In this document: one piece after another, positions 1-31,680 of the stretch | How the letters are laid out: each line of letters opens with the position of its first letter | How positions within the stretch are numbered: the stretch's first letter is position 1 | From: Candidatus Aminicenantota bacterium | GTDB taxonomy: Bacteria; Acidobacteriota; Aminicenantia; Aminicenantales; Aminicenantaceae | Direction of reading: 5' to 3' | Length of the DNA stretch: 33,180 nt | Assembly: GCA_023133225.1 (NCBI GenBank) | Contig: JAGLWV010000014.1 | Coordinates: forward strand, 1 to 33,180 | Program-made: the position numbers and the translations under genes | The notes under the pieces: generated by a model | Database searches by the model: none | Told to the model about the DNA's origin: nothing | What the model saw: only the letters and a program-made list of their open reading frames with translations

Positions 1-65
1 CCGAGAAGAGCGAATGGAGAATGGCGTTAAAAATCTGAAGGGGAGCGAGGCTATCCCCCAAAACC
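1..65 (+). repeat. Truncated copy (right end) of the 248-bp TIR element
   Basis: Ends in GGCTATCCCCCAAAACC (49-65), preceded by ATGGCGTTAAAAATCTGAAGGGGAGCGA, nearly identical to the ends of the copies at 15550-15797 (inverted) and 28058-28305. Confidence 0.85.
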
Positions 66-15518: not shown

Positions 15519-15549
15519 TTTAAGCTAATTCAAAAAAAAATTCAAAGGG

Positions 15550-15797
15550 GGTTTTGGGGGATAGCCTCGCTCCCATTCAGATTTTTAACGCCATTCTTCA
15601 CTCAGCCTTCTCGGCGGCCTCGGAACTCCGCACCACAGTTCATGACATACACCGTATACTTTCTTTCATAACATGGCACATATCTTTTTTCCATCTCGTG
15701 CTCAAACATCTCGGCCGGTTGACTTCGTCAACTTTCCTCAAGGGCCGAGCTCCGAAGGCTAAATCTTCAATGGTCGCTTCGGCTATCCCCCAAAACC
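15550..15797 (-). repeat. 248-bp TIR element, full copy
   Basis: Bounded by GGTTTTGGGGGATAGCC / GGCTATCCCCCAAAACC; aligns without gaps over 248 bp to the copy at 28058-28305 in opposite orientation (24 mismatches by eye). Confidence 0.92.
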
Positions 15798-15827
15798 TTA
15801 GGCTCGAATTAAACAAGATATGCGACC

Positions 15828-15878
15828 AAAAAAGGGGACAGGCAACTATTTAATAAAAAGTAGCCTGTCCCCTTTTTT
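15828..15878. repeat. REPIN-like perfect hairpin, possible bidirectional terminator
   Basis: AAAAAAGGGGACAGGCAACT / AGTAGCCTGTCCCCTTTTTT, 20-bp arms with one mismatch, 11-nt loop, flanked by A/T tracts. Confidence 0.8.
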
Positions 15879-20797: not shown

Positions 20798-23521
20798 TTA
20801 ATGACTTTTTGCGAGGTCTATTATCTTTTTGCTCACATCCTTGTATCCTGAATTCCAATCATGTATTTCATTGTATAGAGCCAAAGCCTTCTTTGCATCA
20901 CCCTGTTCTTCATGAATTGAAGCCAATTCATATTTTAAAGCATAATACTGGCCTGATTCCTCCTCAGAATATTGAACAGCTTTCTCTTTCCATTTTATGG
21001 CTTCCTCAAAGTCCCTCTTCTTAATATGACAATTGCTGATCACACTGAAACATTCGATAGTAAGATTTTTATCCCTAGAAGCCAGCTTAAATTCGTCTAC
21101 AGCTTCATCTATCAAACCTTCCTCCAGAAAGGCTACTCCTAGGTTAAAGCGGCTTTCAAAGTCCTCCTGATCCACATTCTCCTCTACAACTTTCCTGAAT
21201 TCAGAAGCTATATCAGTAAGGTCCTTTTCAGCGGCTGCTCCATCTCCTTTTAACTGAAGCTCAAAAACAGATTCTATCACTTCCAATTCTTCATCTATCC
21301 TATCTTTTAAATCATAATAACTAATTTTGGGCCGTTCTTCAAAAACTTCAGGGGCAACATCTTCTGCTGTAGCGTGAACATCAGAAGCAAGCACATCCTC
21401 CTCACCACCAACAGAATCAACCCCTTTTTTAAATAATTTGGATTCTTCCTGAGTAGCTTTACTAACTCTTTGCATAATATCTTCTTCAGTTACCGTTGAG
21501 GACATTTCACATATAGCAGTAAGCTTCTTTTCTACTCTGGGCTCGTCAGGATAGGATATTCTTAAGTTCTCAAGAATTCTTCTTGCGAGTCTCAATAATC
21601 CTTGTTCGACATATACATCAGCTTGTACCAGATTCGTATCTAACATCTCTTCTGATCCCTCTTCAATTTTTCTAAGGAGTTCCTTCCTTTCCTCATCATC
21701 TGGGACTTCCTCAGCCTTTATTTCTTCTTCTGGAGGCTCAACGGCCTTCTCCTCTTCGGGGGATTTTTCCGCTGTCTCCTCTTCTTTAAGTCCTCCAGGT
21801 ACTTCTTTAAGAACTTCAGGTACTTCCTCTGTCCTCATTTCCGGGGCAGCTTCTTCTGCTACCTTTTCTTCTATGGGAAGCCCTTCTTCCTTCTTCTCTT
21901 CTTCAAGGGCTTCCTCCAATTTTTTCTCCTCCTCGGCAAGCCTTTCCGCTATCTCTTCCTCTCTAAGTCCTTCAGGTGCTTCCTCTGTCCTCATTTCCGG
22001 GGCAGCTTCTTCTGCTACCTTTTCTTCTATGGGAAGCCCTTCTTCCTTCTTCTCTTCTTCAACAACTTCCTCTATTTTTTTCTCTTCTTCCAGAGGCGTC
22101 CCCACTTTCTCTTCTTCGGGGAGTTTTTCAGCTGTCTCTTCTTCTTTAAGAACTTCAGGTACTTCTTTAAGTCCTTCAGGTACTTCCTCTGTCCTCATTT
22201 CCATGGCAGCTTCTTCTGCTACCTTTTCTTCTATGGGAAGCTCCTCTTCTTTCCTTTCTTCTTCAACAACTTCCTCTACTCTTTCCTCTTCTCTTTCCTC
22301 TTTTTCCAGAGGCGTCCCCACTTTCTCTTCTTCCTCAGGAACTCCAAATTCTTCTACAAAAAGACTGTATTCTTTTTTAAGTGCTTCATCTTCAGGACAA
22401 AGATCAACAAGCTCTTTTAATACATGTAACGATTCCTTCCCTCCATTATTGTTATGGTATTCATCCAATATAACCTTGTACACAACCTCTAGGTTCTTCT
22501 TTTGATCTTTTAACTTATAAATATAGGCTAACTTTTCCAGGGCGGGTAAGTAGTTTTTTTTTGCTGAAAGAATAAGACCAAGAAGGCCGATAGCTTTTTC
22601 GACTCTCCTTTTTTTGATCAAGCTCTCAATCAAGGGTAAGTAAAGCTCATAGGCTTGATCAAGTTTATCCAGGGAAATATCGATGCGTCCAAGCTTAACT
22701 CTTGCTTCAACATCCTTTGGCCGGAGGGAAATAATTTTAGAGTACACATCTGCGGCTTTTTTAAAATTCTGGTCTTCAAAATAGATATTTCCCATAAGCT
22801 TGAGAGCGGTTACATTGTCTTTGTCCCCTTTCAGCATATCATTGATTAGATGCAGGGCCTCCTTCTTATTGTTTTCTCTTTTAAGGAGCTCAATCAAATT
22901 GGACAGAGTTCTTGAATGATCTTTTTTAAGATCGCTTGCTCGGCGAAGCATTTCCCTTGCTTCTTTTATAGCATTATTGCGGATCTTGAATTCAGCAATA
23001 TCGTTAAGTTCATCAACCGCTTTCTCTACTTCTCCATTCTTTGAATAAAGCTCAGAAAGCGATAACATCGCTCGCATATCTTTCTTGTCAATTTTTTTGA
23101 TTTTTTCGTAGACAAAAATGGCTTGTTTCAATCGATTATTTTTTCTTAAATCCTTCGCGATATTTATATATTCCGCCTTTGCTTCAGAAATAAAACCTTG
23201 ATTGCTGTAGAGGTCAGCCAATTTCATGGATGTATCTATATCTCCGGGATTTAACTTGCTGGCTTTTTTAAAAATAGCTATTGCTTGAGTGTATAAGCCC
23301 CTCCCTTCGTAATAACTGGCAATCTGATAATATTCTTCGACCGCTTTTTTTTCTTGTTTTAATCTTATATACAATTCACTTATGATGTTCCTGATACTGA
23401 TATCCTGAGCTCCCCCTAACAACAGACTTCGGTACACTTCAATGGCATCGTCATACTTCCCCCTTTTGACGCATCTCTCTGCTTGATCTATGGTTTTGCT
23501 TCTATTTACTTCAGAAACCAT
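20798..23521 (-). CDS. TPR-repeat protein with large Glu-rich internally repeated linker
   Basis: Multiple TPR motifs in N- and C-terminal parts; E/K/P-rich central part with repeated IEEKVAEEAAPEMRTEE units. Confidence 0.88.
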   Translation of the reverse strand: MVSEVNRSKTIDQAERCVKRGKYDDAIEVYRSLLLGGAQDISIRNIISELYIRLKQEKKAVEEYYQIASYYEGRGLYTQAIAIFKKASKLNPGDIDTSMKLADLYSNQGFISEAKAEYINIAKDLRKNNRLKQAIFVYEKIKKIDKKDMRAMLSLSELYSKNGEVEKAVDELNDIAEFKIRNNAIKEAREMLRRASDLKKDHSRTLSNLIELLKRENNKKEALHLINDMLKGDKDNVTALKLMGNIYFEDQNFKKAADVYSKIISLRPKDVEARVKLGRIDISLDKLDQAYELYLPLIESLIKKRRVEKAIGLLGLILSAKKNYLPALEKLAYIYKLKDQKKNLEVVYKVILDEYHNNNGGKESLHVLKELVDLCPEDEALKKEYSLFVEEFGVPEEEEKVGTPLEKEEREEERVEEVVEEERKEEELPIEEKVAEEAAMEMRTEEVPEGLKEVPEVLKEEETAEKLPEEEKVGTPLEEEKKIEEVVEEEKKEEGLPIEEKVAEEAAPEMRTEEAPEGLREEEIAERLAEEEKKLEEALEEEKKEEGLPIEEKVAEEAAPEMRTEEVPEVLKEVPGGLKEEETAEKSPEEEKAVEPPEEEIKAEEVPDDEERKELLRKIEEGSEEMLDTNLVQADVYVEQGLLRLARRILENLRISYPDEPRVEKKLTAICEMSSTVTEEDIMQRVSKATQEESKLFKKGVDSVGGEEDVLASDVHATAEDVAPEVFEERPKISYYDLKDRIDEELEVIESVFELQLKGDGAAAEKDLTDIASEFRKVVEENVDQEDFESRFNLGVAFLEEGLIDEAVDEFKLASRDKNLTIECFSVISNCHIKKRDFEEAIKWKEKAVQYSEEESGQYYALKYELASIHEEQGDAKKALALYNEIHDWNSGYKDVSKKIIDLAKSH
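21823..22275 (-). repeat. In-frame long repeats within the TPR protein gene
   Basis: CTTCCTCTGTCCTCATTTCC..GGCAGCTTCTTCTGCTACCTTTTCTTCTATGGGAAG at 21823, 21979 and 22183 (spacings 156 and 204 bp, both multiples of 3). Confidence 0.9.
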
Positions 23522-26504: not shown

Positions 26505-26604
26505 AAAAAAAGGGTCACATCTCAATATAAGACATGTTTCTCCCGTTCTTACAAAAGCGAATCGGCACCTTCTTCTGAATATGTTAAAAGTCGAGATGCG
26601 ACCC
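26505..26604 (-). terminator. REPIN-like inverted repeat acting as a plausible ffh terminator
   Basis: Minus strand: GGGTCGCATCTC (26604-26593, inside ffh 3' end), ~69-nt loop, GAGATGTGACCC (26523-26512), then TTTTTTT. Confidence 0.6.
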
Positions 26605-27915
26605 CGACAGGAGTTTCTGAAACTGAGATTTTTTCATCATTTTCTTCATTTCTAAAAACTGCTTTAACAACTGATTCACTTCAGAAACCGACCTTCCACT
26701 TCCCTTAGAAATTCTAACTCGCCTGCTCCCGTTGATTATCTTTGGACGTTCCCTCTCCTCCATAGTCATGGAATTGATAATAGCCTCATAGTGAAGAATC
26801 TTCTTATCATCAATATTCAGCTTAGAAATATTCTTAAAAGGCCCGGCTTCGGGAAGCAAGCCTAAAAGTTGGGAGATGGAACCCATTTTTTTCATCTGGA
26901 TGAGCTGCTTTTTGAAATCCTCTAAAGTGAACTCTTGATTCTTGAGACGTTTCGCAAGTTCCTTCGCTTCATCTAAATCAGCCTCCCCCTCGGCTTTCTC
27001 GACTAAACTCAAAATATCGCCCATGCCGAGTATACGAGAAGACATCCGGTCAGGGTGAAAAATTTCAAACTTATCCAATTTTTCCCCCGTACCCACAAAT
27101 TTTATTGGTTTACCTGTAACAGTAACAATCGATAAGGCTGCTCCCCCCCTGGCATCGCCATCGAGCTTGGTTAAGATAATAGAATTCAAGCCAATCGTTT
27201 TTTCAAAAATCTGAGCACTCTTTACTGCATCCTGTCCTGTCATAGAATCTCCAATATAAATAACTTCCGTAGGATCAAGGATATCTCTCACTAATCGAAG
27301 TTCTTTCATAAGATCATCGTCTATATGAAGCCTCCCTGCTGTATCAACAATGAGGGGATCAAAGCCTCGGTTCGTTGCATACTTAACAAGCTCCTTAAGG
27401 GCTCCGGAAGGAGAAGACATCTGCTCTTTTGTCATTTCATAGCAAGGAAGGTTGAGCATCTTTGCAATCATCTTCATCTGCTCTTGCGCAGCGGGCCTTT
27501 TCAGATCAAATGAGACAAGAAGAGGATTTTTTTGTAAGCTCAAAACCCATTTAGCCAGTTTTCCGCAAGTTGTCGTTTTCCCTGAGCCTTGAAGTCCAAC
27601 GAGCATGAAGATCGAAGGGGGGCGGCTCGAGAATTTTAACTTTTTTTCTTCCTGCCCCAGGATTGAAGTCAATTCATCTCTGACTATCTTTATGACCTGT
27701 TGAGCTGGGGAAAGACTCAAAAGAACTTTCTCGTCTAAAGCCTTGAGCTTGACTCGCTCTTCAAATTCTTTCACGACTTGGTAGTTAACATCAGCCTCGA
27801 GAAAGGAAAGTCGAATCATTTTTAATGCTTCAACCATGTTTGTCTCAGTTATCTTCCCCTCGCCGCGAAGATACTTTAAAGCTTTTTGAAGGCGTCTCGA
27901 TAATTGATCGAACAT
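26584..27915 (-). CDS. ffh: Signal recognition particle protein Ffh
   Basis: GLQGSGKTTTCGKLAKW, DTAGRLHIDDDLM, TKLDGDARGGAALS, C-terminal M domain. Confidence 0.97.
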   Translation of the reverse strand: MFDQLSRRLQKALKYLRGEGKITETNMVEALKMIRLSFLEADVNYQVVKEFEERVKLKALDEKVLLSLSPAQQVIKIVRDELTSILGQEEKKLKFSSRPPSIFMLVGLQGSGKTTTCGKLAKWVLSLQKNPLLVSFDLKRPAAQEQMKMIAKMLNLPCYEMTKEQMSSPSGALKELVKYATNRGFDPLIVDTAGRLHIDDDLMKELRLVRDILDPTEVIYIGDSMTGQDAVKSAQIFEKTIGLNSIILTKLDGDARGGAALSIVTVTGKPIKFVGTGEKLDKFEIFHPDRMSSRILGMGDILSLVEKAEGEADLDEAKELAKRLKNQEFTLEDFKKQLIQMKKMGSISQLLGLLPEAGPFKNISKLNIDDKKILHYEAIINSMTMEERERPKIINGSRRVRISKGSGRSVSEVNQLLKQFLEMKKMMKKSQFQKLLSGSHLDF

Positions 27916-27958: not shown

Positions 27959-28057
27959 TGACATCCAATATGTTACGTTAGACCAAGATTAAAATCAATG
28001 AAGAAACCGTGAGCAAGGCTGAGCGGGCATGGTTCCTCTTCTCTCTTTTCACTACCA

Positions 28058-28305
28058 GGTTTTGGGGGATAGCCGAAGCGACCATTGAAGATTTAGCCTT
28101 CGGAGCTCGGCTTTTGAGGGAAGTTGACGAAGTCAACCGGCCGAGATGTTTGAGCACGAGATGAGAAAAGGAAGCGAGTCCCGTAATGAAAAAGAACATA
28201 CGGCGTATGTCATGAACTGTGGTGCGGAGTTCCGAGGCCGCCGAAAAGGCCGAGTGTAGAATGGCGTAAAAAATCTGATTGGGAGCGAGGCTATCCCCCA
28301 AAACC
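28058..28305 (+). repeat. 248-bp TIR element, full copy
   Basis: GGTTTTGGGGGATAGCC ... GGCTATCCCCCAAAACC; same length as the copy at 15550-15797. Confidence 0.92.
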
Positions 28306-28425
28306 TCCTATGGCTTGACTTTTTCTCACATTGCGATTAATGTATTACTACTTTTTTGCAGGAGTAATGGAGAAAAGGATAGAAAAGGATAAGGTTTTAC
28401 CTCGCACACTCTCGGGAGAATAAAA

Positions 28426-28899
28426 ATGAGTCCGAAAATTGATTATAAAGAAGTCAATAAGCTCATTGAGCTAATGGAAAAGAAAAATTTGGACAACTTC
28501 GAACTTGAAATAGAGGGACTTAAAATAAAAATAAGCAGAAATATAGCTCCCGCTGTTGAAGGGGAGTCTTCCACTTCTCTCCCGACATCTCCAAAGAACG
28601 AAACGGAGGAAAGCAGCGAGTCTTTGGAAACTGTCACACAGGAGGGAAAAAATAATCTTCACCACATCACATCCCCAATGGTTGGAACTTTTTACCGATC
28701 TTCAGATCCTTCTTCTCCTCCTTTTGTTGAAATAGATGACTCGGTGAAAAAAAACCAGACTCTCTGCATCATAGAAGCAATGAAATTGATGAATGAAATC
28801 GAATCAGATGTTAAAGGTATTATAATAGAAATTTATGCCGAAAACGGAAAGCCTGTCGAATATGGACAAAAATTGTTTACAATCCAAACACTTCCCTGA
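28426..28899 (+). CDS. accB: Acetyl-CoA carboxylase biotin carboxyl carrier protein
   Basis: [48 protein letters not shown]. Confidence 0.96.
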
Positions 28900-28905
28900 C
28901 CTCTT

Positions 28906-30252
28906 ATGTTTTCCAAAATCCTAATAGCCAACCGAGGGGAAATTGCTCTTCGTATAATCCGGGCAGCCAAAGAATTGGGTTTAAAAACTGTGGCTGTCTA
29001 TTCTGAAGCAGACAAAAACTCCCTGCATACCATGCTCGCAGACGAAAAAATCTGCATAGGTCCTGCCAAAGCTTCTGAAAGCTATCTCAATATACCCAAT
29101 ATCCTGAGTTCTGCTGAGATTACAAAAGCCGATGCGATCCATCCTGGCTATGGATTCCTGGCGGAAAATCCCCGTTTACCAGAGATCTGTGAAACATCAG
29201 GCATCACTTTTATCGGTCCTTCCGCTTCGATCATGAGGATCATGGGGGATAAAAACAAAGCTCGTCAAGAGATGAAGAGAGTGAAATTACCTGTAATCCC
29301 GGGCAGTGATGAAATTATTGATGATGTATCAGAGGCAAAAAAACTCGCCCAAAAAATCGGCTGTCCCGTTATTCTCAAGGCAACATCAGGGGGCGGAGGC
29401 AAAGGCATGAGAATTGTCCGCTCTGCCGCAAATCTGGAAGGCCAGTTTTCCATTGCCCAAAATGAGGCCAAAGCCGCTTTTGGCGAATCTTCTCTTTATC
29501 TGGAAAAATATATCCCAAGAGCCCATCACATCGAGATACAAGTCATCGGGGACAAAAAGGGAAATGTTCTCGCCTTTGGAGAAAGAGAATGTTCCATCCA
29601 GAGAAAATACCAGAAAGTGCTTGAGGAAACACCTTCTCCTTTTATTGATGATAGGTTGCGGAAAAAGATAATCAAGGCCGCACAGGAAGCAGCACATTCT
29701 ATAGGCTACGAAAGCCTGGGAACATTTGAGTTCTTGGTGGATGAGAATAGGAAATTTTATTTTATGGAAGTAAACACCAGAGTCCAAGTCGAACACCCGA
29801 TAACCGAAATGGTGTACGGAATTGACTTGATCAAAGAACAAATCAAGATAGCAAAAGGTGAAAAACTCTCTATCCCCCATGATTTAAAACTAAACGGTCA
29901 TTGTATAGAATGCAGGATAAATGCAGAAGATGCAGAAACATTTTTTCCCTCTCCTGGGAAGATTGACTTCCTTGCTCTTCCGGGCGGAGAAGGAATCCGT
30001 ATAGATTCCGCCGCTTACTGCAATTGGGAGATTCCCCCTGACTATGATTCTCTCATTGCAAAAATTGTAGCAAGAGCTCCCACACGACCGGAAGCCATCA
30101 AAAAAATGTTAACTGCTCTAGAGATGACAACCATTGCTGGAATAAAAACAAATATCCCACTTCATTTGAGTATTCTTTCCAATTCAGATTTCATCAAAGG
30201 AAACTACGACATCCAATTTATGGAGAGATTTCTTCGTAATAAGAACAAATAA
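28906..30252 (+). CDS. accC: Biotin carboxylase
   Basis: ILIANRGEIALRIIRAAKELG, HPGYGFLAEN, KATSGGGGKGMRIV, FMEVNTRVQVEHPITEM. Confidence 0.97.
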   Translation: MFSKILIANRGEIALRIIRAAKELGLKTVAVYSEADKNSLHTMLADEKICIGPAKASESYLNIPNILSSAEITKADAIHPGYGFLAENPRLPEICETSGITFIGPSASIMRIMGDKNKARQEMKRVKLPVIPGSDEIIDDVSEAKKLAQKIGCPVILKATSGGGGKGMRIVRSAANLEGQFSIAQNEAKAAFGESSLYLEKYIPRAHHIEIQVIGDKKGNVLAFGERECSIQRKYQKVLEETPSPFIDDRLRKKIIKAAQEAAHSIGYESLGTFEFLVDENRKFYFMEVNTRVQVEHPITEMVYGIDLIKEQIKIAKGEKLSIPHDLKLNGHCIECRINAEDAETFFPSPGKIDFLALPGGEGIRIDSAAYCNWEIPPDYDSLIAKIVARAPTRPEAIKKMLTALEMTTIAGIKTNIPLHLSILSNSDFIKGNYDIQFMERFLRNKNK

Positions 30253-30323
30253 GGGACGTTCCCCAGAGTACCATCCTTTGCGAACTCATATTTAAAGGGT
30301 GGTACTCTGGGGAACGTCCCTTA
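30250..30323. repeat. REPIN-like 30-bp-arm hairpin shared by two convergent gene ends
   Basis: TAAGGGACGTTCCCCAGAGTACCATCCTTT / AAAGGGTGGTACTCTGGGGAACGTCCCTTA, one T/G wobble, 14-nt loop. Confidence 0.9.
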
Positions 30324-31680
30324 CTTTCTTTCTTATCCGGATCTTGACCTCAAACTCACCGGAGTTATCGCCTACGACATTCTCATTGATTCCCAAATAA
30401 AGACGCCCGTTCAACGGCATCATTATAGTATTTTTTGGTCCTATAAAAAATTTTTCAACAACCTCATGGCGAATGTCTTGTTCTTTTTCCTCGTTAATTT
30501 CAACAGAAATGAGCCAGACAACTCTCCCGATTAAAGCCCCTTTATTCCTATCTGTAAAAGGTTGATGCAAGTCTTGAAGAGGATAGCCCTCAGGCCCACA
30601 ATGGGCAATTGGATTGCCTTCCTGAAGAATGATTTGCCCGGATGCGTCAAAATAAATTTCCTGGCCTTCTCTAACATCAAGTCCGGAATCTGTCCAATCC
30701 AGATCGCCCAAAACAGCGAGTTGAATGTCTGTTTCCAGTTCTGTTTCGGAGTATTCATCCATTCCCTCACGGAGAAATGTGGACGGTAAAGACTTGAGCA
30801 GAGATCTCAATTCGTTGAATCCTGAAGGGTCCTCATAAAAGGGAAAAGAAGGGAGCAATTTCAAATAAGCTAAGAGTTTTTTTTGCCTCCTTGGATTCCA
30901 GGGATTTTTTCTCATCCAGGAGAAAGAAGGTTCTTCACTTATCCCCAGTCGATTAACCAAGGTCACAAATCCTTGAGGATCGAATTCTGCATCATAACTA
31001 TTTATGAGCGCAAATTCGTCAGCTTTCTCGATCTTGGAAGAATCATATTCGAGGTTTGAAAAAAAGGCAAAAGCACCTCCCTCAGCCAAAAAAATCCGAT
31101 CCAACCTCTCCCATCCTTTATCTCCTGCAATTATTTCTCCCGGTTTAAAATCAGGTTGATTCATCAATTTTTTATTAATCTGCTGGTGAACGTGATGGGC
31201 CATGACATGCCCTGTCTCAAAAGCTAAAATCCCAGCAAGCTCGGATTCTGATTCTGTGGCTTCAATCAGGCCACGGTAGATATAAACCTGTCCTCCTAAT
31301 GTTGTGAAGGCATTAATATCAGGAGAATCAATAATTTTGAAGGACCATTCCCAATTCCCGACAAGTTCGCCAAAACGAGTCCGATTGATAATCCTATTTT
31401 TTATTCTATCCAGAAAATTACTCAAGAATTTATCTTTCAAAATCACAATTTCTTTTTCAATCTCGGAAGCTATCCTTCTGGCATATACGATTTCATCACC
31501 CTCTGGTATGAGATAAAATCTTTTTTCAGCTTCATCCTCTTTCCTCTTCAAAACAGAGCCTTCAACAGCAGTACAACTGAAAAAAATCGACAAAAATAAT
31601 AGAAGAAGAGGGATTATTGACAAAAGAGAAACATCAAATGTCTTCCTTTTTCTCACTTGGCTTTTTTTGCTGTTTTTCAT
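30292..31680 (-). CDS. M48-like lipoprotein with degenerate zinc site (start re-assigned to ATG 31680)
   Basis: NAFTTLGGQVYIYRGLIEATESESELAGILAFETGHVMAHHVHQQ resembles the M48 core; leader LLLLFLSIFFSC. Confidence 0.75.
   Translation of the reverse strand: MKNSKKSQVRKRKTFDVSLLSIIPLLLLFLSIFFSCTAVEGSVLKRKEDEAEKRFYLIPEGDEIVYARRIASEIEKEIVILKDKFLSNFLDRIKNRIINRTRFGELVGNWEWSFKIIDSPDINAFTTLGGQVYIYRGLIEATESESELAGILAFETGHVMAHHVHQQINKKLMNQPDFKPGEIIAGDKGWERLDRIFLAEGGAFAFFSNLEYDSSKIEKADEFALINSYDAEFDPQGFVTLVNRLGISEEPSFSWMRKNPWNPRRQKKLLAYLKLLPSFPFYEDPSGFNELRSLLKSLPSTFLREGMDEYSETELETDIQLAVLGDLDWTDSGLDVREGQEIYFDASGQIILQEGNPIAHCGPEGYPLQDLHQPFTDRNKGALIGRVVWLISVEINEEKEQDIRHEVVEKFFIGPKNTIMMPLNGRLYLGINENVVGDNSGEFEVKIRIRKKVRDVPQSTTL

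Follow-up and report, generated by a model that had tools for sequence, protein, structure and literature searches.

The repeat at positions 15550-15797 of the window (the whole 33,180-nt stretch of Candidatus Aminicenantota DNA analysed here) belongs to a real and apparently undescribed family of the bacterial interspersed palindromic repeat kind, set apart by compensating arms, a conserved junction and the exchange of copies in place. The interpretation that we favour, and to which we attach about an even chance, is that the family is an old, order-wide, non-autonomous and non-coding structured repeat in which a folded single strand would be under selection, and whose copies would mostly be refreshed in place and only rarely inserted anew.

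Copies, anatomy and distribution of the family

The window is contig C46, and the assembly to which it belongs comprises 3.08 Mb at 79.65% completeness. As a preliminary description had it, copies of 248 bp lie at 15550-15797 and 28058-28305, align without gaps in opposite orientation and end in perfect 17-bp repeats. Its estimate of ~90% identity and ~24 mismatches agrees with BLAST, which gives 90% over positions 1-248 for the copy at 28058-28305, with about 24 differences, and the third copy that it placed at 1-65, cut by the left edge, matches at 91% over 65 nt. A repeat search lengthens the match between the first two copies to 267 nt at 88% identity (15532-15798 and 28057-28323). We also built the covariance model that had been proposed as a check; with the window sequences left out, it nevertheless recovered all three window copies, at E values (given below) that exclude chance similarity. 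The features are as follows.

15550..15797, minus (the inferred folding strand, opposite to AGATTTTTAACGCC): copy 1, of the 178-spacing type; model match 15778-15569, minus, E = 4e-22
28058..28305, plus: copy 2, between the divergent ffh (26584-27915, minus) and biotin carrier (28426-28899, plus) genes; model match 28077-28286, plus, E = 2.8e-23
1..65, plus: copy 3, of which the contig end leaves the 3' part; model match 1-46, plus, 5' truncated, E = 2.6e-6
15550..15566: outer arm GGTTTTGGGGGATAGCC, the form that the variable outer stem takes in one subfamily
15781..15797: complementary outer arm GGCTATCCCCCAAAACC
15578..15596: left conserved core CAGATTTTTAACGCCATTC, matched exactly; in alignments A1-A3, GAATGGCGT and AAAAATCT hardly vary
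15755..15770: right conserved core AAGGCTAAATCTTCAA, exact match; conserved in alignments A1-A3
28003..28056: remnant of "module 2", a second palindromic repeat (...AACCGTGAGCAAGGCTGAGCGGGCATGGTTCC...), abutting copy 2

Across the family there are two short conserved cores, CAGATTTTTAACGCCATTC on the left and AAGGCTAAATCTTCAATG on the right, whose spacing falls mainly into two classes, ~112 in a 182-bp form and ~178 in the 248-bp form seen in the window. The apex occurs in interchangeable forms, and some copies carry another palindromic repeat there, giving a spacing of ~240 or more. The outer stem is specific to the subfamily, being GGTTTTGGGGGATAGCC in the window genome and ATGATTTTGGAAATTCC, AATACACGGAAATGG, GGAGCAGGGTAATGTC or GAAATTCAGGTGTGG elsewhere, each opposite its own complement. 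Of the 95 distinct 16-nt outer arms that we counted, 92 have at least 12 of their 16 bases complementary to the arm that they face, as against 4.7% with foreign partners. The 17-bp ends given in the preliminary description are real, but 15550 and 15797 do not mark the ancestral ends of the element, since in several subfamilies the pairing continues outward for another 20-45 nt of imperfect inverted repeat (TAAGCATCTCCAAATCCGTGAT...ATCACGGATTTGGAGATGCTTA) in other copies and in relatives.

Within its own genome the 248-bp query had 39 BLAST matches, ~13 of them full length (copy counts here are search-based), which excludes the outcome, named in the preliminary description as a refutation, that the copies in the window were the only ones. 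About a dozen long copies in this genome are 86-90% identical. The family was found in 42 of 60 relatives, with identity declining from 90% within the genus to ~70% in other genera. The left core had about 50 and 34 matches in two single-contig Aminicenantes chromosomes, where a reversed-pattern control gave 0-1, and the exact 18-mer AGATTTTTAACGCCATTC was present in at least 116 stretches of the species collection, nearly all titled Candidatus Aminicenantes among the matches listed. When 199 genomes of the phylum were scanned with the covariance model, six matched, all from the same order; few members of that order were sampled, so the range limit is provisional. As far as we searched, and with that proviso, the family is confined to one order of Candidatus Aminicenantes. 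The core pattern also occurs in contigs titled Bryobacterales and Neomarinimicrobiota (L192 and L135), which are possibly misbinned contigs or cases of true transfer, and copies of the element frequently sit at contig ends in these assemblies.

That the element matches no named family holds for Rfam, with no match in the window at the gathering threshold and only chance-level matches at E ≤ 1, and for phage, plasmid and viral collections: the exact 18-mer core pattern had no match in viral contigs, and distant blastn found no copy in phages or plasmids. A search of open-licence papers yielded no description of Aminicenantes repeats or RNAs.

Other repeats lie near these copies. A REP-like inverted repeat (AAAAAAGGGGACAGGC...GCCTGTCCCCTTTTTT) lies at 15828-15878; it has dozens of matches in the genome of the sister species, and similar motifs occur near two Y1 transposase loci (L320 and L329). 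The module-2 stretch at 28003-28056 (...AAACCGTTTGAAGGCTGAGCGGGCATGGTTCC...) follows many copies of the main element in the window genome, and module 2 is also nested in the main element's apex in G013 (L259, L273, L277, L279 and L287). A 33-bp inverted repeat at 30247-30326, 94% complementary with a 14-nt loop (AAATAAGGGACGTTCCCCAGAGTACC...), lies between two convergent ORFs and could be another small repeat family. A dispersed repeat (CTGGATTATTCACGAGTCGAG...) adjoins the element at L080, L230, L315 and L032 and has 49 motif matches in the loci examined. Finally, long imperfect direct repeats at 21648-22291, within a 907-aa ORF (20798-23521), encode Glu/Lys-rich repeats.

Folding and covariation of one strand

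The preliminary description left the choice between a MITE-like element and a dispersed structured RNA or DNA element, and the structured reading is strongly borne out by covariation and by strand asymmetry. One strand can fold so that a variable outer stem leads to two short helices, both invariant and with a conserved asymmetric internal loop, and on to a junction whose inner helices covary. In alignments of the short form (A2, 30 sequences, 51 consensus pairs) and the long form (A3, 32 sequences, 49 consensus pairs), double compensatory changes were present at 32 of 51 and 36 of 49 pairs, respectively. Paired cells made up 94.6% in A2 (81.5% when shuffled) and 93.4% in A3 (79.2% when shuffled), and none of 500 shuffles reached the observed values; the shuffles leave relatedness in and the sequences are not independent, so that the covariation is strong but overstates the number of events. 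Sliding the partners reduced paired cells to 35-53%. Positions in the loop and junction are conserved beyond what pairing needs (A1-A3).

The two strands differ. Consensus energies for the strand opposite AGATTTTTAACGCC were -51.6 and -50.6 kcal/mol in the two alignments, versus -39.1 and -35.4 kcal/mol for the other strand, and in pairs predicted on both strands the ratio of GU to AC cells was 53:28 and 67:18, again favouring the strand opposite AGATTTTTAACGCC. The outer stem alone has a weaker bias (25:17 in A2, 29:10 in A3), and the window copy by itself has the same strand preference (z of -6.9 versus -5.7). Together, the consensus energies, the G-U/A-C asymmetry and the z scores of the window copy point to the minus strand as the functional one in 15550-15797 and to the plus strand in the other two copies. 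The change of sequence from copy to copy under a retained fold suggests that selection acts on the folded shape of one strand and not on a transposon end sequence. G-T wobble is tolerated in single-stranded DNA too, and the asymmetry therefore fits RNA and single-stranded DNA alike.

A rival reading is a functional structured non-coding RNA class (processed, trans-acting or an RNA-processing site) that is multicopy by happenstance and for which dispersal is secondary. We think this rather unlikely, even though it is favoured by the compensatory changes in the inner helices, by the one-strand G-U preference, by the extra conservation of loop and junction, and by orthologous sites at which different genera retain the element in one orientation (see below). 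The surroundings of the copies argue the other way. When the folding strand is counted as plus, 119 elements were flanked on each side by a readable ORF (called mechanically, so that the counts are approximate). Of the upstream ORFs, 76 were antiparallel and 43 parallel, and of the downstream ORFs 60 lay on the plus and 59 on the minus strand, which excludes a leader, riboswitch or 3' UTR arrangement for the family as a whole. No conserved flanking promoter or terminator was seen, the copies are intergenic with gene neighbours and copy number that vary freely, and several relatives have no match. Judging from a relative's empty site, with promoters assigned by eye, copy 2 appears to sit between the promoters of the ffh and biotin-carrier genes.

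Orthologous sites and modes of spread

Comparison with the sister species G001, whose flanks are 93-98% identical, indicated that most decidable sites are common to both species with differing contents; the loci were chosen because they hold elements, and site counts are therefore not rates. At the window's 15550 site, G001 has a 182-bp form at the same spot (flanks ~95% identical) and G015 has no element. A long form of the 178 type on C140 corresponds to a short form of the 112 type at the same site in G001 (C173), and at the C112/L085 site both species have the long form, the best matches of L004 and L085 each being a paralogue in their own genome. At the C383 site, G001 (C170) retains hollowed-out remains with another subfamily's arms in the same place. 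On C373, compared with C98, a different (module-2) palindrome, intact in G001, has had its apex replaced by the element, and at the C130 site G001 has no element. The preliminary description had reported no clear target-site duplication, and none is visible around the copies of the window genome; one filled/empty pair has an imperfect TAAGnAGGC-like repeat, and the absence of a duplication can reflect age.

Between genera, where flanks are 68-76% identical, six sites hold an element in both partners, and the orientation agrees at each of them: ffh/accB (window copy 2 and L257), L040/L065, L273/L073/L163, L287/L014, L268/L164 and L112/L146. Many other cross-genus sites are empty in one partner. 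Long retention at the shared sites could mean host function instead of self-propagation.

In the reading that we favour, the folded single strand would be what selection sees, and in the simplest mechanism the element's own copying and repair would use the fold as their substrate. Insertion would be a rare source of new copies, with the apex of another palindrome as an occasional target, and existing copies would mainly be overwritten in place through recombination or template switching with other copies, a process that would keep the family homogeneous within a genome. More tentatively, and at a level of belief clearly short of even, we suggest that these repeats may form a new class of dispersed genetic element, in which a strand-specific junction fold is conserved in place of an end sequence. 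Such elements would spread mainly by overwriting existing copies in place, any drift of the outer stem being fully compensated, and an undescribed enzyme or host protein would recognise them as folded RNA or single-stranded DNA.

The MITE-like half of the preliminary description fared less well. A classical MITE, moved by a DDE transposase encoded elsewhere in the genome that recognises the terminal inverted repeats, would agree with the size (248 bp, below 500 bp), the perfect 17-bp terminal inverted repeats, the intergenic dispersal, the lack of coding capacity (as had been noted, the 248-bp repeat encodes no transposase and has chance ORFs only) and the dozen or so similar long copies in one genome. 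However, the arms vary between subfamilies within one genome (95 versions, 92 still self-paired) around a conserved interior, the reverse of what transposase-binding ends predict; the core is 49-50% G+C and not A+T-rich; no target duplication was seen around the copies of the window genome; and the right-hand boundary of copies falls into at least two classes. Nor was an ORF-bearing partner seen in G000 (the window genome), G013 or G024, where cores pair at about 40-340 nt and no pair spans an ORF. We consider this explanation improbable.

It is more improbable still that a short conserved core inserts into pre-existing palindromes, the variable outer stems being part of the host sites instead of the element. 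The replacement at the module-2 apex (C373/C98), the nesting of module-2 or REP-like palindromes within the apex of the element itself, and the targeting by YPAL in Yersinia of sites spanning or adjoining dyad symmetry (PMC2229807) all fit this idea. Against it, the outer stems are homologous within subfamilies and in fixed register to the core, the inner helices covary too, the L040 and L065 flanks match outside the element while the stems differ, and the G001 counterpart of L013 looks like an empty site without an outer stem.

SINE-like spread by a reverse transcriptase, or single-strand spread by a Y1 (RAYT/TnpA-like) transposase acting in trans, agrees with strand-specific folding but is very improbable: RVT_1 had no match in the copy-rich genomes G013 and G024; 17 Y1 loci had no element cores beyond weak partial matches; no Y1 match was found in G001 despite its 21 element matches (weak evidence, as MAGs are incomplete and G001 is 82% complete); and the element has no replication-fork orientation bias in two chromosomes (26:20 and 15:16, with dnaA taken as the origin), so that lagging-strand single-stranded transposition gains no support.

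Comparison with known repeats and significance

By their published descriptions, which are the sole basis of this comparison with ERIC, YPAL, BOX and RUP and carry no claim of membership, the families nearest in kind would be ERIC, BOX and above all YPAL, all of them palindromic repeats of intergenic regions whose RNA folds are stable and whose mobilisation is unproven (PMC2229807, PMC10969869, PMC3049150). YPAL, or RU-2, of Yersinia is about 170 bp, intergenic, palindromic, not A+T-rich and without TA ends, and targets sites in or next to dyad symmetry (PMC2229807). The Aminicenantes element likewise is intergenic, palindromic, not A+T-rich and without TA ends, but it resides in another host group and its fold is larger, of junction type, and has a variable outer stem. 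YPAL gives target duplications of 3-26 bp; none was seen around the copies of the element in the window genome. ERIC, or IRU, is an intergenic imperfect palindrome with tens to hundreds of copies, an RNA fold and an unproven mobilising enzyme (PMC2229807, PMC10969869); it is 127 bp long with TA ends and is found in enterobacteria and neighbours, whereas the Aminicenantes element is about 180-300 bp, order-restricted and equipped with subfamily-specific arms.

BOX, RUP and SPRITE of pneumococcus are modular and mutually nested, with a variable middle, a predicted RNA fold and a low transposition rate (PMC3049150), and the Aminicenantes element shares the modularity with a variable middle, the nesting and the predicted fold. 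The ends of RUP and BOX resemble those of resident IS elements, while no such partner was seen here; compared with BOX and RUP, the fold of the Aminicenantes element is backed by compensatory changes between genera. The literature links REPs to Y1-type (TnpAREP) genes (PMC3116915, PMC8266576). Like REPs and REPINs, the element is a hairpin repeat dispersed between genes, and a REP-like repeat occurs in the same genomes, but it differs from REP/REPIN systems with RAYTs in having no linkage to Y1 genes.

ERIC, BOX and YPAL have been known for decades, and their mode of spread and the importance of their RNA folds are standing questions. With tens of copies per genome in many species, strong covariation, and both filled/empty and filled/refilled pairs of sites, the Aminicenantes family offers a way to test which of the strands is under selection and whether its copies move or undergo conversion where they stand, and it is a candidate for a new Rfam entry.
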